DNA of 64,000 nucleotides from an uncultured Dehalococcoidia bacterium (GCA_903844845.1 CAIMVG010000019.1:1-64000); one strand, 5' to 3'; positions 12,356-21,279 are shown, counted from the first letter of the stretch. Translations and numbers: made by a program. The notes: generated from the sequence alone by a model not told the origin.

Positions 12356-12427
12356 GGCGACGTAGCTCAGTGGTAGAGCAGGGGACTCATAAGCCCTTGG
12401 TCGGTGGTCCAAATCCACCCGTCGCCA
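12356..12427 (+). tRNA. tRNA-Met (CAT), elongator type
   Basis: Acceptor GGCGACG pairs with CGTCGCC, the anticodon loop is CTCATAA, the T-loop is TCCAAAT and the discriminator is A. The G1-C72 pair excludes an initiator tRNA. A tRNA-Ile2 (CAU read as lysidine) is possible but less likely. The 3' half is repeated downstream three times (see the repeats at 13243, 14464 and 15690). Confidence 0.93.
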
Positions 12428-12588
12428 CTTATCTAACTTCCTACCTTGAGGAAAATCATAGTTGCGTTGGGAATGTCCTCATACGAATGTTTAACGAACT
12501 CTATTCAGTCACAAAATCGTTCTATTACGCTCAAAGAAGCAATTTCCAATTCCCTGATAACCTGAAAGGTCGAAGGTGACTGTTTGCC

Positions 12589-12999
12589 TTAGCTTTTATT
12601 AATAGTCAGGACCAAACGGTAGTCTCTGTTCTCAATCTGCTGACCAAGTTGTGGATACGGGTTCAAAATGAAACTTAAGCTGTACCCCTCAATTTTCGTC
12701 GAAACAGATGAACCACCACCAGGTTGAATGAGAGTTACCGTTTGCTCGTTCTTGTTAAGTGAAATGTTAATTGTACACTCGGCTTCCCCTGCCCATATAC
12801 ACTGCGCACCTGATGGACAACGGCTATCGGCTGTTACTGCGATAAATTCAATAGTCATCTTCTCCGAAGGTATTGTGACACTTTGACCAATAGCCAGTGA
12901 GAATTCCTGGCCCAAATTAGCTTGCTTGCCGAGTCCCGAGCATGCCGCTAAAGGCAAAAGCATAAACGCCAAGGTAAGAGACAGAACGTGCTTCTTCAT
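12589..12999 (-). CDS. Hypothetical small lipoprotein
   Basis: This 136-aa protein has an N-terminal signal ending LAAC (Cys20) and so is an exported lipoprotein. The mature part is beta-rich and contains DSRCPSGAQCIWAGEAEC, a three-Cys motif I have seen in conserved hypothetical envelope proteins. A GAGGAAGAT ribosome site precedes the ATG. It is the only gene between the tRNA-Met and the first repeat of its 3' end, and it points back at the tRNA. Confidence 0.8.
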   Translation of the reverse strand: MKKHVLSLTLAFMLLPLAACSGLGKQANLGQEFSLAIGQSVTIPSEKMTIEFIAVTADSRCPSGAQCIWAGEAECTINISLNKNEQTVTLIQPGGGSSVSTKIEGYSLSFILNPYPQLGQQIENRDYRLVLTINKS

Positions 13000-13242
13000 A
13001 TCTTCCTCATTAATCTCTTATTTTATAACGTCAACTACATATAAAAGATAGCCAAGGGGACTTTGGCATCAATGACGGTCCTTATGTAAACCCTATTCGG
13101 TGTTAAATGCAGCCAATCGCCGGGGCAAAGCCCCCAATTGTGCGAAGGATGGCGGCGAAAAGTCCAGTTGTTCTGAAGACAAAAAGAAATGCATCAGGTA
13201 TTATTATGCGATCGGGGAGAAACATATGCAATATGTCATTTT

Positions 13243-13266
13243 TCCAAATCCACCCGTCGCCACTTA
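13243..13266 (+). repeat. Direct repeat of tRNA-Met 3' end (copy 2, 24 bp exact)
   Basis: Bases 13243-13266 are identical to 12408-12431, which is the T-loop, acceptor strand, discriminator and the four bases after it in tRNA-Met. There is no 5' half. This is what an attachment site left by integration at the tRNA 3' end looks like. Confidence 0.92.
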
Positions 13267-13283
13267 ATTTATTTCAAAAACCG

Positions 13284-13946
13284 ATGAAAAAACACTTGCT
13301 GCGTTCATTTGATTTTCGTTTTGGTTTAAAAAGTCTTCTAGAGCCATCAGTTTTGGCCTTATTCGCGGCCAATCTTTATCCGCTGATAGGCGTGCTTTTC
13401 CTGGGTTGGAATACCTTTTATCTACTGATACTCTTCTGGATGGAAAACGTCGTCATCGGTTTTTACACCATCATCAAAATGCTGCTGGTCCCTGGTACTA
13501 AATCCGGCTGGGCGGCCAAACTGGCAATGATTTCCTTTTTTTGTGTCCATTACGGGATGTTCACCCTCGTACACGGTATTTTCGTATTCGTGATATTTGG
13601 GGCTGATTTTGGTGGGCAGGGTACGGAGATACTGTGGAGCAGCATCGTAAGCTATCAGCTGCCGTGGGCTGCGCTGGCATTATTCATAAGTCACGGTTTC
13701 TCCTTATTCCAGAATTATATTGGCCTTGGTGAATATGAGCGGAGCAACCTGGGTGGTGTGATGCTGCAACCTTACAGCCGGGTGGTTATCCTTCACCTTA
13801 CCATAATCTTCGGAGCTTTTTTCCTGACAATCCTGGGGTCCCCATTGATCGGGTTGATAATCCTAATTATCCTTAAAATAGCCCTTGATTTGCGGGCCCA
13901 TTTACAGGAACACAGTCAGTACATTTCCCCGATACCAACGGTATAG
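13284..13946 (+). CDS. Integral membrane protein, DUF6498-like
   Basis: I start the gene at Met 13284 (MKKHLLRSFDF), giving 220 aa with about six membrane helices. The helix pattern with WMENVVIGFYTIIKM and FCVHYGMFTLVHGIFVF looks like the DUF6498 membrane family. The longer frame back to 13107 would run through the tRNA-fragment repeat and is rejected. The start lies 17 bp after the repeat. No ribosome site is visible, so translation may be leaderless. The function is unknown. Confidence 0.75.
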   Translation: MKKHLLRSFDFRFGLKSLLEPSVLALFAANLYPLIGVLFLGWNTFYLLILFWMENVVIGFYTIIKMLLVPGTKSGWAAKLAMISFFCVHYGMFTLVHGIFVFVIFGADFGGQGTEILWSSIVSYQLPWAALALFISHGFSLFQNYIGLGEYERSNLGGVMLQPYSRVVILHLTIIFGAFFLTILGSPLIGLIILIILKIALDLRAHLQEHSQYISPIPTV

Positions 13947-14057
13947 GATTTGCGTGCCCTTATTCGTTGTCCCAAACCAATTTTTTAACAGTGATGTGTC
14001 TAGTTCTTTCTCAATGTTTTCGGAGGCAGCCGGTAAGTACACTACCGCAGGGGATGT

Positions 14058-14459
14058 ATGAAAACTTTAAATAAAATATTCCCGGTTAAAATCGCATTTA
14101 TAGTGTTCATTGCTATTTCATTTATCGCTGTTGTATATCACATCCTGATCCTTACCCAAGTCACCCCTTACGCAAATGCCTGGGGCGGAAGGTTAAACAG
14201 CGTTAAGGAGATGTATGTTTTTGAGACGTTTCCAATCATTTCCCAGATGGCCTTTGTCCTGATTGGTGTACTCAAATTCAAACAAGCTGGCGGTAAACGT
14301 TCGCAGACGATGCTATCTGTTTTACTTTACATTATGTCCGGGTTACTGGCCCTCAATACGATAGGGAATATCTTGTCATTAAGCAGCTTTGAGGCTATTG
14401 TATTCACTCCGATAACTTTTGTAGGTTCTCTTTGCGCGTTCCGGCTCGCACGGAACTAG
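14058..14459 (+). CDS. Hypothetical four-helix membrane protein
   Basis: This 133-aa protein has four hydrophobic segments. The sequence between helices 1 and 2 is short and polar (TPYANAWGGRLNSVKEMY). A GGGGAT ribosome site precedes the ATG. I do not recognise the family. The stop codon lies 5 bp before the third tRNA-Met 3'-end repeat, so the gene closes that cassette. Confidence 0.7.
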   Translation: MKTLNKIFPVKIAFIVFIAISFIAVVYHILILTQVTPYANAWGGRLNSVKEMYVFETFPIISQMAFVLIGVLKFKQAGGKRSQTMLSVLLYIMSGLLALNTIGNILSLSSFEAIVFTPITFVGSLCAFRLARN

Positions 14460-14463
14460 GTGG

Positions 14464-14488
14464 CGGTGGCCCAAATCCAACTATCGCC
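14464..14488 (+). repeat. Degenerate repeat of tRNA-Met 3' end (copy 3)
   Basis: CGGTGGCCCAAATCCA and TATCGCC match the tRNA-Met T-arm and acceptor strand at about 20 of 25 positions. The copy is older or more diverged than copy 2. It begins 5 bp after a stop codon. Confidence 0.75.
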
Positions 14489-14704
14489 GTTTCAGGCACT
14501 TAAACATCCCTAAGCGTTGGTTTCTCTATTGAAACGATGTTGTTGAGTTCCCTTTTCCTCAAACCCGCGTTTTAGCGATTAGTCGTAAGTGGAAAATACT
14601 GAAACCATTTTTGTTTCCACTCAGTGGATCGTCCTGAATACTCGCATAGTAACTTGAGGTTACATTTTGCGTTAATATATCAGGGTAAGATATAAGGAAG
14701 CCTG

Positions 14705-15613
14705 ATGCAAAAAGAATTTGGTTTCTCAGTCGCCAAAATGGTCATTTTGATCGTCTGTGTTCTCTTAATGACGGGCAGCTGTTCTTCTTCAAAAACTGAG
14801 GGATTTGCTATATATTTGACCAAAGGCGATATCGCCCCTGAGCAGATGTTCGCCTTGAGCCAGGTTGAACTCAAGAGCCTGCCGATTATCAGTTTATCGG
14901 ATATCATCACATACAACGCCCAAACACACGAAATAAAATTGACCGCGGATGCCTTTGCCCGCATTGCTCTTTTAGAGGTTCCGGTCCAAGGCAAGTCATT
15001 CGTGGTTTGTGTCGACCGAAAACCTATATACTCCGGCGCTTTCTGGACTCCGATTTCGTCCATCGGATATGATGGCGTAACCATCTGGAAGCCGCTATAT
15101 TCTCAAGCAACGAAAATTGTCACCCTGGAATTAGGCTACCCGTCTTCAACTTTTTATGCAGGCGAAGACCCCAGAAATAACCCGGAAGTGTTACGTTCAA
15201 TCGCGCAGGCCGGCAAACTTTTAGATAAACTGTCGATAACCGGCGTCGATCAGCTGCCGGATTCAATGAAAGGTTACGAATTGTACTCATGGTTCGAAGA
15301 TAGCCAATGGTACTTCACCTTGATAACAGGAACAAACCGGAATAAAACTTCCGAAGAAATCCGTACAAGCGAGGATTTTGTCTCCGAAACGGGGTGGGTG
15401 AAAATCCGCATGTCAGGTGTTGACGCGCTCGAAGCTGCTTTGCGCAAACTACCCAAAGGCGAAGATGTAGTCTGGTTGGCAATGCCTCCACCGGAGCCAA
15501 CATCAGCAGGCGGGTTTGGTATCACACTACCGCCGAGCCCGGTCACAAACAGTATCAAAGCGTATGCCTCTTCCCTCGGCTTAAACTTCACAGTACAGAC
15601 GCCTGAGTATTGA
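14705..15613 (+). CDS. Hypothetical lipoprotein
   Basis: This 302-aa protein has an N-terminal signal ending LMTGSC, so it is a lipoprotein. The mature part is mixed alpha/beta. It includes DAFARI...VPVQGKSFVVCVDRKPIYSGAFW, which resembles an SecD-like P1/YcdO-type beta-alpha-beta module, but I am not sure of the family. An AAGGAAG ribosome site precedes the ATG. It is the only gene between repeats 3 and 4. Confidence 0.72.
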   Translation: MQKEFGFSVAKMVILIVCVLLMTGSCSSSKTEGFAIYLTKGDIAPEQMFALSQVELKSLPIISLSDIITYNAQTHEIKLTADAFARIALLEVPVQGKSFVVCVDRKPIYSGAFWTPISSIGYDGVTIWKPLYSQATKIVTLELGYPSSTFYAGEDPRNNPEVLRSIAQAGKLLDKLSITGVDQLPDSMKGYELYSWFEDSQWYFTLITGTNRNKTSEEIRTSEDFVSETGWVKIRMSGVDALEAALRKLPKGEDVVWLAMPPPEPTSAGGFGITLPPSPVTNSIKAYASSLGLNFTVQTPEY

Positions 15614-15689
15614 GTTCTTCATGAAGTAAGGTCTGGGTCGGAACGCAACAGTCATCGAACTGAGGAGGTACTTCACGAGTCAAATGTCT

Positions 15690-15714
15690 GTGGTACGAAT
15701 CCGCCCGTCGCCAC
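15690..15714 (+). repeat. Degenerate repeat of tRNA-Met 3' end (copy 4)
   Basis: GTGGTACGAATCC and CCCGTCGCCAC match the tRNA-Met T-arm and acceptor strand at about 22 of 25 positions, including an exact CCCGTCGCCAC. Confidence 0.82.
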
Positions 15715-15762
15715 GGTGCTCTTTTTCCAATCCCTCTCAATACAACCTCGCACGCCCGCTAT

Positions 15763-15791
15763 TGACTTGAACCCGAAATAACAACTATCCT
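15763..15791 (+). promoter_or_regulatory. Promoter of the shikimate-kinase-like gene (leaderless)
   Basis: TTGACT (15763-15768), a 17-bp spacer and TATCCT (15786-15791). The -10 ends 6 bp before the GTG start, so transcription should begin at or next to the start codon. Confidence 0.65.
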
Positions 15792-15797
15792 TGGTTT

Positions 15798-16304
15798 GTG
15801 AGTAAATCCGGCATCGTGTTGATAGGCATGGCAGGGGTGGGCAAATCCACTGTCGGTTCTGCTCTGGCCGAAGCCTTGAGGTTTGAATTTATAGACCTTG
15901 ACGAATATCTTAGCAGCCAGGAAGGCCAAACTATTCAGCAGATAATCGATAGCCGGGGCGAAGAAAAATTACTTGAATTGGAAAGCGAGAGCCTGCGTAA
16001 AATTGACCTGAACCGCAAGGTAGTGTCCCCCGGCGGAAGCATCGTCTACGACCGCGACATCATGGAATATCTGAAAGAGGTTTCCTTTTTAATATATCTG
16101 GACGATACCTTTGAAAATATCAGCAGCAGGCTTGGCAATGCGCCGACCCGGGGCATAGTTGGGTTAAAAACGAAATCTTTAAGACAGATATATGACGAAA
16201 GGCGACCAATCTATTCGCATTTCGCAGATTTCACTCTCGACGTATGCGGAAAGCCGGCGAAAGACGCAGTTTCCGAAATCATCAAACGTATACCACAAAT
16301 CTGA
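15798..16304 (+). CDS. Shikimate kinase family protein
   Basis: This 168-aa protein is a P-loop kinase with Walker A GMAGVGKST (about residues 9-17), the shikimate-binding DLDEYL (DxD-type) and the central GGS motif (SPGGSIV), where canonical shikimate kinases have GGG. The Arg after the lid (TRGIVG) is also present. It may phosphorylate shikimate or a related polyol. No other aro genes are near, so aroK is not assigned firmly. Confidence 0.78.
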   Translation: MSKSGIVLIGMAGVGKSTVGSALAEALRFEFIDLDEYLSSQEGQTIQQIIDSRGEEKLLELESESLRKIDLNRKVVSPGGSIVYDRDIMEYLKEVSFLIYLDDTFENISSRLGNAPTRGIVGLKTKSLRQIYDERRPIYSHFADFTLDVCGKPAKDAVSEIIKRIPQI

Positions 16305-16325
16305 CGGCTAAAAAAGGAGGGTTTT

Positions 16326-16475
16326 ATGGATAAGCGCGGTACTGGAGGCGCCTCGGGCGGAGTGATCTGGTTCATCGGCTGGCTGTTCACGATATCTTTC
16401 GCCCAACTGGCTTTCTGGAAGATAATCGTAGGCCTGATTGTATGGCCCCTGTTCCTGGGGCAAGCCCTCAGGTAA
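16326..16475 (+). CDS. 49-aa small membrane protein
   Basis: This frame is too short for usual gene finders, but AAGGAGGG lies a few bases before the ATG. It encodes a Gly-rich start (MDKRGTGGASGG) followed by one long or two short hydrophobic segments (VIWFIGWLFTISFAQLAFW and KIIVGLIVWPLFLGQAL). Its function is unknown. It probably belongs to the shikimate-kinase-like transcript. Confidence 0.7.
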   Translation: MDKRGTGGASGGVIWFIGWLFTISFAQLAFWKIIVGLIVWPLFLGQALR

Positions 16476-16519
16476 AATTTCAAAGAACCCGGTTTAAGCC
16501 GGGGATCGCTGCCCGGGAC

Positions 16520-16750
16520 TCATTGTTTGTGTTTCAGTATGGCAGACCGAATAATTTTAAGTTTTTCAGGTCTGCCCAGACATGCAATTCCGAGGCAGCA
16601 ACCAAGAATAACAGGAAAATAATAGTTGTCGCTCCACGACCTTTGAAACGGGGGTAGAATATGGTCAAGATCAGTGAGAAGGGAGCCAACCACAATAGCC
16701 CCCATAGTATATGCAAAGAATCGGATACGAGAATAGTGCTTATCGACCAT
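16520..16750 (-). CDS. Small membrane protein (one of two overlapping frames)
   Basis: The ribosome site AAAGGAGG (16768-16761) precedes two ATGs in different frames. Frame B (ATG 16750, 76 aa) contains GSLLTDLDHILPP, like the DxDH motif of small DUF457/YdjM-type membrane hydrolases, then a second helix (PVILGCCLGIACLG). I prefer frame B on that motif. Frame A (ATG 16755, ending 16534, 73 aa) has better ribosome-site spacing and is also hydrophobic. Only one is likely to be real. Confidence 0.5.
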   Translation of the reverse strand: MVDKHYSRIRFFAYTMGAIVVGSLLTDLDHILPPFQRSWSDNYYFPVILGCCLGIACLGRPEKLKIIRSAILKHKQ

Positions 16751-16844
16751 TGCATGCAAACCTCCTTTAGTGATTGACGATATTTTCCTGGAATATCCGA
16801 AAACCCTGACAAGTATCCTTCGGAAAATCAGCCCGGGGGATGTT

Positions 16845-17738
16845 TTACTCCTTAAATAGTTTGGTGCTGAGGTATTTCTCGCCCCTGTCGGGGAAGATGA
16901 CCACTATCGTTCCCGTATTTATCTGCAGGGCGATTTGAGATGCTGCATACATCGCGGCCCCGCTGCTCATCCCGACGAAAATACCCTCGCAGGCCGCGAC
17001 TTGCCTGGCGGTCTCGTATGCGTCCTCGGTTTCAACCATTATGGTGACATCTATCTTCGAGGGGTCATAGATCGAAGGGACGATCGCTTCCTCCATGTTT
17101 TTGAGCCCCTGGATATAGTGCCCTTTAACTGGATGCGCTGAAACCACCTTGATGGCTGGATTGTGCTCCTTTAAGGCCTTTCCCACACCCATGATGGTGC
17201 CCGACGTGCCCAGGGAAGACACGAAATAATCTATTTTGCCGTTCGTCTGTTTCCAGATCTCTTCGCCCGTCGTCCGGTAATGGGCTATCTGGTTGTACTT
17301 GTTGGAAAACTGGTCGGGCATGAAATAGCGTTCCGGATGTTCGCGGACGAGTTCCCGGGCTTTCATGATGGCGCCATCGGTTCCAAGTTTACCCTCGGTT
17401 AGAGTCACCTTGCCTCCGAAGGCTTTTATCATTTTCCTGCGTTCGACCGAAACCGCGTCGCTCATAACGATTTCGACCTGATACCCTTTCACTACGCCTA
17501 TCATGGCAAGGGCCACGCCGGTGTTTCCGGAGGTGGGCTCGACTATGGTTTTCTCTTTGGTCAGCTTCCCCTCTATCTCGGCTTGCTCGATCATGGCGAG
17601 CGCTATGCGGTCTTTGATGCTGCCGCTTGGATTGAGCCCTTCAAGTTTGGCATAGATGGCACAGTTCTTGTTGGGGTTTAGCCTGTTAATCCTGACGATG
17701 GGAGTGTTCCCTATCGTTTCGAGTATATTTTCCGCCAT
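16845..17738 (-). CDS. cysK: Cysteine synthase (O-acetylserine sulfhydrylase)
   Basis: This 297-aa protein is a PLP enzyme that makes cysteine from O-acetylserine and sulfide. It has IGNTPIVRIN, the PLP Lys in PSGSIKDR, the Asn/phosphate loop TSGNTG and the C-terminal GMSSGA. An AAGGAG ribosome site precedes the ATG. A hairpin (ACGCCTG...CAGGCGT, 17762-17786) lies between it and the upstream ligD. CysK and CysM cannot be told apart with certainty. Confidence 0.92.
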   Translation of the reverse strand: MAENILETIGNTPIVRINRLNPNKNCAIYAKLEGLNPSGSIKDRIALAMIEQAEIEGKLTKEKTIVEPTSGNTGVALAMIGVVKGYQVEIVMSDAVSVERRKMIKAFGGKVTLTEGKLGTDGAIMKARELVREHPERYFMPDQFSNKYNQIAHYRTTGEEIWKQTNGKIDYFVSSLGTSGTIMGVGKALKEHNPAIKVVSAHPVKGHYIQGLKNMEEAIVPSIYDPSKIDVTIMVETEDAYETARQVAACEGIFVGMSSGAAMYAASQIALQINTGTIVVIFPDRGEKYLSTKLFKE

Positions 17739-17810
17739 GTCCAGTGCTCCTTAATGAATTGACGCCTGCTTTATGGATTCAGGCGTAACTATTGTACACC
17801 AGCAAATATT

Positions 17811-20528
17811 TTATTCAACCCGGGGCTTCCAGTCATCGGTAATGCCCCCAAGCTCCCGCTTATTCTTCATGATGTCCCCCCAGATGTCACCTGTTTGCTC
17901 CAGCCTGTTCGCGGCGTTTGAGATGTTGAAATCCTCGGGATAGATTCTATCGAGTTCTTCCCAACGGAAAGGCAGTGACACCCCTGCCCAGGGCGTTGGC
18001 CTGGCAGAATAGACCGAGGCTACCGTTTTTCCGCGTGTGTTCTGGTTGAAATCCAGGAATACCTTGCCGCGTCTTTTAGCGACCGCCCATTCGGTGGTGA
18101 GCTTTTCGGGGTGGCTGGATTCTACGTGGCGGCTGATGGCTGCGGCTGCCCGCCGGGTTGTGTCGTAATCATATTTGCGCTTGATGGGCGCGAAAATATG
18201 AAGCCCGGTTTTGCCGGAGGTCTTGGCGTACGGCACGAGATCGAGAGACTCGAGGGCTTCCTTTACCCAGAATGCGGCTTCAACCGTGGCTTTGAAGGCT
18301 TGCCTGTTGAGCTCGGGTTCTCCGCCGGCGGTTTCTGTACCTGAATAGATATACGGGTCGATATCGAATATTAGGAAATCCGGTATCCCTGCAAGGTAAT
18401 CCCCGAGGTGTTCCGGGGCCCCGTGATAAAATGACAGGTCAGGACGGTCGGGCCTTTCGGCTGCCCTTGAATACCAGGTGTGGACCTCGAGATCTGCCAG
18501 CTGTCCCAGCCAGAGGAGGGTAGCCAGATTGTTGCACATCAAGTAGTCCTGGAACGCATCATTTTCCGACGAATAAATACTGACCGTCTCGACGAACTCC
18601 GGAAGCTGCGATTCCCAGTGCTTCTGGTAGAACTTTTCGCCGTTTATCCCATTCGGATACCGAGTGAGAGTAAGCGGCCTGTCCTTTGCATGGGGGAGGA
18701 TGAAATCGGATATCTCTGCCAGGTAGGTTATGTAATCTCGCTTGGTGAGGGGCCGGTTCGTGCCGTATTTGGGCCAGAAGACCTTGTCTAAGCCGGTCAG
18801 AGATATCTGGTGGCCGCCCGCATTGATGTGGATCTCATCATCGCGGCTGCCAAGCGCCTCTAAAATCTGGCGTGTGGATTTGCTGAGTTCGACCGGTCTT
18901 TCAGAAGGAGGCGTTGGAGGTGCAATTACTTCCATGGCGCTAACATCGGAGGCCGGTTTGTCGTCACGGAGGCGCAGGAAGACCGGGTGGCGCAGGGAAC
19001 CCGCAGGTGTCCTCTCCGCGAACTTCACTTCGGCCACCAGTTTCGGTTTGACCCAGGTCACGCCTGGCACGCCCGCTATCTCCCCGGAAAATGGAGACCT
19101 GTCAGTAACTAGAACCGCCAGTTTTTTTTGAATGGATTCGAGCAGGGAGTTGTCGAAACCGGTGCCGACGCTGCCGACGTAAACCAGTTTTTTACCTTCA
19201 AAATACCCTAGGAGCAGAGAGGCGAATGTGCCGGCGCGTTTTCCGGCTCCCGCGGCGAAACCGCCTATTACGAATTCGTCGCTTAAAGTGGCCTTCACCT
19301 TTTGCCAGCTTCCGGTACGTTTGCCGGCCTCATAGAGGCTCTTCTTTTTTTTAGCGACCACCCCTTCCATGCCCGTCTCGACGGCCGCCTTGAATATTTG
19401 CTCACCGTCTCCTTCAAAATGTTCGACGAGTTTCAGGTGTTCGCCCGGGGCCAGCACCTTCCCGAGAAGCCTGTTTCTTTGTTCCCATGGGACCCCCATG
19501 AGGTTGAAGCCGTCATAATACAGGATGTCGAAAACGTAGTAAACGGTTGTAAACGGCTTGCCAGTGTGCTCATGCGGCAGGCCCACGTGCTGCTGCAGGC
19601 ATTGAAAACAAGGTTTCCCATCGTCGTCTACGGCGACTATCTCGCCGTCCAGCACGGCATCTCCTGTGAGGTTTTTCAAGTCTGAGACCACAGCCGGAAA
19701 GTGCTGTGTCATGTCGTTGTCGTTACGCGAACGCAGGATTATATTTCCCCTGTCGATATATGAGAGAGCGCGAAAGCCGTCAAGCTTGGGTTCGAATATC
19801 CACTCGTCGCCGGAGAACGGTTTGGGCTTCAGTTCCGACAGCATGGGGGACACGTGTTCGGGCATCACAGAAGCTCTTGCCCCGGGGACACGTCCGACAG
19901 CTTCTTTCGACCGGCTCGCAACTTTGCTCTCCGGAATCACCAGTGACTTCAAGCCCTCGATAGTCCTCCCGCTTATCACGGAAGCTTCCCTGGAAAGCAC
20001 TTCGTCTTCGGCGGTTTCGAACCCGTCACGATGTTTTAGAAGCAGCCAGTTTTTCGGGTCTTTCGCTATCCTTACAAGCGCCCAGCTGCCCTTTAGTTTT
20101 TCCCCGTGGATTGTGAAGGACATCTTTCCGGCTTCCAGCTTGGTACGCACACGTGCCTGAGAGGCTTCCCTATCAAGGTTAAGCGGTATCCCATCCGAAT
20201 CTGGTTCGTAAGTCCCCCTGTCCCAGACTATCACCTGGCCCGCTCCGTATTCGCCCTCCGGGATCACGCCTTCGAAATCAGAATAGGCGATCGGGTGGTC
20301 TTCGACGCTTACTGCGAGCCGTTTCTGGGAGGGGTCGAACGAGGGCCCGCGGGGGAGGGCCCATGATTTGAGAACACCATCGAGCTCGAGCCTCAGGTCG
20401 TAGTGCAGCCGGCTGGCAGAATGTTTCTGAATCACGTACATCAAGCCGGAAGATGGTTTAGCGATTTTACCAGTGGGCTCGGGGCTCTTTGCAAAATCAC
20501 GCTTGCGTTTGTACTCGTTGAGAGGCAT
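17811..20528 (-). CDS. ligD: Multifunctional DNA ligase D (phosphoesterase-ligase-polymerase)
   Basis: At 905 aa, the domain order is a 3'-phosphoesterase (SASRLHYDLRLELDG), an ATP-dependent ligase with the adenylated Lys in FEPKLDGFRAL (about Lys249), and a C-terminal primase-polymerase with the catalytic DID in LIFDIDPY. This is the full bacterial non-homologous end-joining enzyme. Its usual partner Ku is not in the window. The start is ATG 20528 with GGAGCAGGTG upstream. Confidence 0.95.
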   Translation of the reverse strand: MPLNEYKRKRDFAKSPEPTGKIAKPSSGLMYVIQKHSASRLHYDLRLELDGVLKSWALPRGPSFDPSQKRLAVSVEDHPIAYSDFEGVIPEGEYGAGQVIVWDRGTYEPDSDGIPLNLDREASQARVRTKLEAGKMSFTIHGEKLKGSWALVRIAKDPKNWLLLKHRDGFETAEDEVLSREASVISGRTIEGLKSLVIPESKVASRSKEAVGRVPGARASVMPEHVSPMLSELKPKPFSGDEWIFEPKLDGFRALSYIDRGNIILRSRNDNDMTQHFPAVVSDLKNLTGDAVLDGEIVAVDDDGKPCFQCLQQHVGLPHEHTGKPFTTVYYVFDILYYDGFNLMGVPWEQRNRLLGKVLAPGEHLKLVEHFEGDGEQIFKAAVETGMEGVVAKKKKSLYEAGKRTGSWQKVKATLSDEFVIGGFAAGAGKRAGTFASLLLGYFEGKKLVYVGSVGTGFDNSLLESIQKKLAVLVTDRSPFSGEIAGVPGVTWVKPKLVAEVKFAERTPAGSLRHPVFLRLRDDKPASDVSAMEVIAPPTPPSERPVELSKSTRQILEALGSRDDEIHINAGGHQISLTGLDKVFWPKYGTNRPLTKRDYITYLAEISDFILPHAKDRPLTLTRYPNGINGEKFYQKHWESQLPEFVETVSIYSSENDAFQDYLMCNNLATLLWLGQLADLEVHTWYSRAAERPDRPDLSFYHGAPEHLGDYLAGIPDFLIFDIDPYIYSGTETAGGEPELNRQAFKATVEAAFWVKEALESLDLVPYAKTSGKTGLHIFAPIKRKYDYDTTRRAAAAISRHVESSHPEKLTTEWAVAKRRGKVFLDFNQNTRGKTVASVYSARPTPWAGVSLPFRWEELDRIYPEDFNISNAANRLEQTGDIWGDIMKNKRELGGITDDWKPRVE

Positions 20529-20707
20529 ATTTCACCTGCTCCGCAATGTTTAACAAACCCGCCTTATTTCTACAATAGCATGTTCTGAGGTCGTGCAGCG
20601 ATACGGCCATTTTTCCACGAAACCCCCGACAGATTTTGCACAGGAATTTCGTGCAGAGTTAGTCGCACGTCTGGCTTACACAACTGGCTTTTCCCGGTCA
20701 AAGAATT

Positions 20708-21046
20708 CTAAATGTCCGGAACGGGCAGTTTCTTGCTGCGCATACCCGCGACAATTATCCGGAACCCGTCCCCGGCGAGCCAGGAAGAAAGCCTGACGTC
20801 ACCTCTTTTGAGGAATGCCTGCCTGATTCGGCCGCCCGCAAATTGCCCCGCAGCGAAATCCAGCACGAATAGAGGGATAAGCGCCCAGTTCCAACCCAGA
20901 AGCCAAAGGCGAAGCCCTATAGCCATCGGAACGGGAACGTGTATCGCGGCGATCCATTGCAACGAAAATTTCCGCGTGTTTCCGCGCCAGTACCCGAAAA
21001 CCACATTTATTATTAATATAGCTGCGATAACTATGGCCAACCTCAT
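20708..21046 (-). CDS. Hypothetical small membrane protein
   Basis: This 112-aa protein has three predicted membrane helices (starting RLAIVIAAILIINVVFGYW) and a polar C-terminal tail. AAAGGT upstream is a weak ribosome site. I do not recognise the family. It lies alone between ligD and the histidine kinase. Confidence 0.6.
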   Translation of the reverse strand: MRLAIVIAAILIINVVFGYWRGNTRKFSLQWIAAIHVPVPMAIGLRLWLLGWNWALIPLFVLDFAAGQFAGGRIRQAFLKRGDVRLSSWLAGDGFRIIVAGMRSKKLPVPDI

Positions 21047-21279
21047 TTTCGTTTACCTTTCGATAGGGTATCCCAATACTTTAACACAACAGAGGTTTCG
21101 GACAAATATTCCGTGGATTAGCTTTCGGAGGGGCATCTCAGTAGTCCTCCAAAAAGGAACTGCTTTATTTCTGCATTCCTGTGCGTAACAAGAGGAATTG
21201 ACACCGATGGATAAGAGTAATAGCATTATGGCACATTAGCTGATATTGCATAAATTCATAATCGCCGGGAGTTTATGGT

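Follow-up and report, generated by a model that had tools for sequence, protein, structure and literature searches.

Small gene cassettes bounded by direct repeats of tRNA sequence make up the additive flexible genomic islands described in Actinomarinales (PMC7771536), Methylophilaceae (PMC10872708) and Alteromonas (PMC4119200). The content of these islands differs between close strains and their cassettes move between genera; in Methylophilaceae, where the islands follow repeats of the tRNA-Lys end, their sizes extend from 330 bp to 42 kb. Among tycheposons, a case involving tRNA-Met has been reported (PMC10872708). The ssrA islands of Dehalococcoides (PMC3146451, PMC2764846) are arranged in tandem, carry 20-bp 3'-end repeats and are inserted at the T-loop, with 11 of the 20-bp repeats present behind ssrA in strain VS. 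Many of them contain rdhA genes, a six-gene integration module and the CcrB-like serine recombinase DsiB, and 15 of the tandem islands are without an integration module (PMC3146451). CIMEs (PMC5704250) keep att-like repeats, have no genes for integration or transfer and grow in tandem at one site.

Here we analyse a stretch of 64,000 nucleotides from an uncultured Dehalococcoidia bacterium, hereafter the window, in which three small cassettes, occupying 3.3 kb of low-GC DNA, are divided by copies of a tRNA 3' end. An earlier note on this DNA considered such a system to be undescribed; additive islands, tandem ssrA islands and CIMEs are, however, close precedents.

Repeats of a tRNA 3' end in the window

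The array is anchored by a tRNA gene with a CAT anticodon, predicted by ARAGORN on the plus strand (positions 12356–12428), which is also the presumed attachment site. It is not the initiator tRNA gene, which was identified separately, and the candidates are elongator tRNA-Met and tRNA-Ile2. The repeated core runs from the T-loop to the 3' end of the gene and includes the adjoining CTTA (12408–12431, plus strand). Copy 1 (13243–13266) reproduces these 24 bp exactly, while copy 2 (14461–14489) and copy 3 (15688–15714), also on the plus strand, are diverged; copy 3 is the last recognisable boundary. Over 29 positions of the tRNA tail, 25 match in copy 1, 22 in copy 2 and 25 in copy 3. Dinucleotide shuffles give an expectation of 0 matches to the 24-mer in the window even at 3 mismatches, and with 300 shuffled queries scored against the 64 kb a score of 22 was never reached and 21 once; copy 2 is therefore the weakest of the three, yet above chance. 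By alignment, the core is common to the window repeats and four counterparts in a genome of the same genus (G001).

The exact recurrence of the 24-mer was thus confirmed, as were the coordinates and spacings given in the earlier note, and the diverged copies that it placed near 14464 and 15690 are real. The 5' half of the tRNA is absent at every copy in the window and, judged from the profile of the repeats, the copies are T-loop-to-3'-end fragments, as had been proposed, and not decayed whole tRNAs. No 3'-end copies of tmRNA were found in the window. The orderly gradient of identity, read earlier as a sign of insertions of different age, did not hold: in the window it is the middle copy that has diverged most and, taking all arrays described below, there is no steady increase of divergence away from the tRNA but a weak and non-significant trend, 22 distal steps being more diverged and 13 less (p = 0.18).

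Cassettes and genes of the window

GC content is 0.449 in the array, 0.546 upstream and 0.506 downstream, and the cassettes measure 0.8–1.2 kb. Cassette 1 (12432–13242), which extends from the tRNA core to copy 1, holds an open reading frame on the minus strand for a small lipoprotein-like product of 136 aa (12589–12999) with no Pfam family. Cassette 2 (13267–14460) encodes a 220-aa DUF6498 membrane protein (13284–13946, plus strand; PF20108, E = 2.9e-59), which has a 78% identical counterpart in the G001 array, and a small membrane protein of 133 aa (14058–14459, plus strand; open reading frame with no Pfam family). In G001 a copy is found directly 3' of the DUF6498 gene, where the 133-aa membrane protein gene intervenes here (13946–14058); cassette 2 might therefore be two fused cassettes that have lost the copy between them. 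Cassette 3 (14490–15687), between copies 2 and 3, contains an open reading frame for a lipoprotein-like protein of 302 aa (14705–15613, plus strand) with 68% DNA matches in G012 and G031, there outside arrays. No integrase was seen inside or adjoining the window array, and both the open reading frames and the Pfam matches bear out the earlier description of small integrase-less cassettes between repeats.

DUF6498 was considered as a habitual cassette gene and rejected: besides the window, it is bounded by copies only in G001, and just one core-like match occurs in each of the loci retrieved from G145 and G143. Being so rarely copy-bounded, the DUF6498 gene is not itself the mobile part. Past copy 3, a segment with shikimate kinase, a PALP enzyme and ligD (15715–21194) is replaced by ∼0.9 kb in G001, so that the variable zone extends beyond the last recognisable copy.

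Distribution of 3'-end copies in the order

Stretches around CAT tRNA genes from ∼100 genomes of the order, 913 kb in all, were surveyed for copies, allowing up to 4 mismatches over 22 bases of each genome's own tRNA tail. This yielded 66 copies behind 34 of 99 CAT tRNA genes, every one of them downstream of the tRNA and on the same strand; at the 99 loci none was upstream and none on the opposite strand. The figure of 34 loci is a lower bound, because many contigs stop soon after the tRNA. Another 35 tRNAs located in these stretches were without copies except for a pair of real tRNA-Ser genes, and shuffled DNA scored with a weight matrix of the core gave 0 hits per Mb. We take the order to be Dehalococcoidales, since one of its families (f8) has 18–50 reductive dehalogenase matches per small genome, pointing to the Dehalococcoides/Dehalogenimonas group.

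Copies match the tRNA of their own genome from the T-loop to the 3' end. Their profile retains the T-loop, the 3' strand of the T-stem and the 3' strand of the acceptor stem, followed by a run of T; the 5' strand of the T-stem is mostly lost, and the copies are therefore 3'-end fragments. The left edge lies most often at −21/−20, with a minority extending to the anticodon loop. The commonest shared core is ∼22 bp, counted from the T-loop, and some copies agree fully with the tRNA over a length of 35–51 nt. A 47-nt copy of a tRNA-Met 3' end was also seen in a single-contig genome (G035:C1:316993-317039), 121 kb from the tRNA and on the other strand.

In the window genome itself, 46 tRNA genes were checked over downstream stretches of mostly 8–18 kb, less at contig ends. 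Copies follow two of the 46, the window tRNA and the initiator tRNA-Met, the latter being a further tRNA with 3'-end copies of the kind that the earlier note had suggested looking for. The initiator tRNA-Met gene (G000:C21:88489) has copies at +864 and +1602, which delimit two one-gene cassettes (G000:C21:88400-101000, positions 90–1800) coding for a 183-aa protein without a family and a 186-aa DUF4256 protein. The terminator stem of the initiator tRNA recurs after each of these copies. Among relatives, copies were present at 4 of 20 initiator loci sampled. The tails of elongator/Ile2-type and initiator CAT tRNAs share a CCGCTRCCA-like end in many genomes of the order, and one recombinase may therefore be able to use both.

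Size and content of the cassettes

The copies define 81 intervals with a median of 801 bp, most of them 0.3–3 kb and the longest 14.4 kb. One major open reading frame is present in 61 of the 75 ORF-containing cassettes (median coding fraction 0.76), and orientation is near-even, with 51 open reading frames on the plus and 49 on the minus strand. GC content is lower in the array than upstream at 28 of 28 loci. The 83 cassette proteins include universal stress protein, FKBP, flavodoxin, GNAT, methyltransferases, PNPOx and others; defence or phage cargo was rejected as a theme, since the matches are to a range of metabolic families, among which those of defence or phages are few. Related cassettes occur in different families of the order, namely in G020 and G032 (77% DNA identity over the gene) and in G107 and G014 (73%), the latter with copies at both ends in both genomes.

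Gain and reordering of cassettes between relatives

The window genome (G000) resembles G001 as far as the end of the tRNA and again from copy 1 onwards, in the DUF6498 cassette (81%). Homology resumes exactly at copy 1, and cassette 1 in between is unrelated to the G001 DNA at the same place. In G126, the tRNA and a diverged copy exactly enclose a 326-bp cassette with one Smr-domain gene, and what lies past this copy corresponds to the DNA that comes directly after the tRNA in G127; on this alignment, the two loci are an occupied and an empty site. Cassettes follow the order A-Y-Z-C-B-D in G097 versus A-B-X-C-D in G098, two blocks are exchanged between G152 and G153, and the cassette adjoining the tRNA in G147 is located 9.1 kb downstream in G043. 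Within arrays, 25 of 34 ends of homology blocks fall on a copy, compared with 2.0 expected, the ends being not fully independent of each other. Presence or absence at the same site is seen in G000/G001, G126/G127, G097/G098 and G152/G153, which are comparisons between species, not strains. An insertion order with the newest cassette at the tRNA holds in some pairs and fails in others.

Relatives thus do not always carry all cassettes. Because many of them have other or reordered ones, the site appears to act as a gene-collecting dock. A clean empty-site junction was not found for the window's own array, the clean case being that of G126 and G127 in another genus; the next-nearest genera to the window have no copies, but no alignable downstream flank either. 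The genome comparisons demonstrate, at the level of sequence, core-bounded cassette units, their gain and reordering, their sharing across families and the specificity for the target. The repeated insertion at one tRNA proposed earlier is accordingly upheld as regards bounded cassettes, gain and reordering at copies, and is not supported as regards the age gradient and the lack of a described counterpart.

Candidate recombinases

A search for an integrase in trans had been suggested, and the window genome has several tyrosine recombinases, with integrases of a fitting type located elsewhere at other tRNAs; no integrase of this genome is tied to the window tRNA site. Two such genes, G000:C22:14638-15725 and G000:C3:31847-32917, lie 37 and 52 nt behind tRNA-Lys(CTT) and tRNA-Pro(GGG), respectively, and no 3' copies of these tRNAs were found within ∼9 kb of the integrases there. 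Relatives of these recombinases are located directly behind a CAT tRNA in G060 (+19) and G121 (+111), while a member of the same family spans or follows a copy in G128 and G124 and, in G022, one lies close to the copy at the distal end of a 14.4-kb element. Of 156 genomes, 106 contain the family, and a tRNA lies within ∼1.5 kb of the gene in 21 of the 30 examples retrieved. A PF07508 serine recombinase is absent from the window genome. One pattern scan for viral contigs with the core plus T-run found none, and no circular form was seen. In one Dehalococcoides-like genome there are three equal-scoring copies of a tRNA-type integrase (G077:C1:262096, 284454 and 831866).

Proposed mechanism and alternatives

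We consider it probable that the arrays form by site-specific accretion of integrase-less, mostly single-gene cassettes at the 3' end of CAT tRNA genes, with the recombinase supplied in trans. The tRNA 3' end would be the chromosomal attachment site, at which small cassettes would insert one after another. An incoming cassette would bring its own version of the sequence from the T-loop to the 3' end, and in the initiator array the terminator too; since the cassette supplies a tRNA 3' end, the tRNA would be restored and the old 3' end pushed downstream, where it would form the distal boundary. As copies could recombine again, cassettes may be lost or moved and their order may change. Divergence is frequent among the copies that come after the first, and many of these may therefore have ceased to be active sites. 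The recombinase would most likely be a tyrosine recombinase of the family found directly behind tRNA genes in the order, with strand exchange presumably taking place in the T-loop region. The enzyme, as well as a circular intermediate and a route between cells, is what we infer. More tentatively, CAT tRNAs might be integron-like platforms, with the T-loop-to-3' end of both elongator/Ile2-type and initiator tRNA(CAT) as the sites at which a dedicated tyrosine recombinase, supplied in trans, takes up single-gene cassettes from a pool shared across families, excises them and changes their order.

The cassettes could instead be what remains of larger integrase-bearing islands that were inserted serially and then lost genes. 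Such CIME decay is an established model for other tandems (PMC5704250), integrase-bearing elements do occur at the same tRNA in G060, G121, G124, G128 and G022, and some of the intervals are long, up to 14.4 kb. Random loss would, however, leave integrase fragments and uneven ends, whereas the median interval is 0.8 kb with one intact open reading frame filling about three quarters of it, the unit present in G126 and absent from G127 is a single gene in 326 bp, small cassettes with core copies at their ends are common to different families, and units have been moved in order; we therefore regard decay as unlikely. A process without a dedicated recombinase, in which DNA that has been taken up recombines homologously or anneals at the repeated tRNA ends, seems more doubtful still. 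For this process the copies of 35–51 nt identical to the tRNA could suffice, and the cases in Methylophilaceae and Actinomarinales have been described without a named enzyme, yet the commonest core of ∼22 bp is short for RecA, many copies are diverged, and in the window genome copies are confined to CAT tRNAs although any of the 46 tRNAs could serve. That the copies match the tRNA by chance or are left over from duplicated tRNA genes, as the weakness of window copy 2 (22/29) might suggest, is scarcely credible and is refuted by the order-wide survey, with 0 matches expected by shuffling, 66 copies against 0 by strand and side, no tRNA 5' half at the window copies and homology that breaks at copies.

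Comparison with known systems

Our literature search, which was incomplete in coverage, found nothing on CAT-tRNA arrays in this order, and the single-gene scale, the specificity for CAT tRNAs, the order-wide spread and the shuffling look new. The arrays indicate that a tRNA with no integrase beside it can be a place where single genes are exchanged, accumulated and rearranged, and they extend through an order of bacteria with small genomes, among them the dehalogenating Dehalococcoides group. As the site is defined, the core short and candidate recombinases can be named, cassette capture at tRNAs becomes directly testable.

Integron cassette arrays resemble those described here in their tandem single-gene cassettes, shuffled order and varied functions. 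They differ in that the window array has no integrase, tyrosine recombinases lying elsewhere in its genome, and in that the present arrays show both gene orientations about equally and are anchored by a tRNA. An attC-like core was rejected, since the copies fold no better than shuffles and inverted repeats are not in excess over shuffled flanks. Tycheposons are likewise anchored at tRNAs and linked to tyrosine recombinases, but they measure 4–200 kb and carry the recombinase, whereas the window cassettes measure 0.8–1.2 kb and have none. CIMEs share with the window array the flanking att-like repeats and the absence of integration and transfer genes; classic CIMEs are decayed larger elements, an origin that the compact behaviour of the cassettes here, with about one gene each, argues against, although larger elements do lie at the same tRNA in relatives. 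The ssrA islands, which belong to what we infer to be the same order, are also tandem elements behind a structural RNA gene with 3'-end repeats. Their target is tmRNA, that of the present arrays a CAT tRNA, and the window genome is without the PF07508 serine recombinase. Additive islands likewise have a tRNA as the target of small cassettes and direct repeats of partial tRNAs at their ends, but they are known from other phyla and other tRNAs, whereas in the window genome the copies are those of CAT tRNAs only, and the arrays of this one order consist mostly of single genes in tandem rows that are exactly reordered. The array is therefore a miniature, order-wide version of an already described kind of genomic island, through which additive islands and ssrA islands, published separately, become linked.
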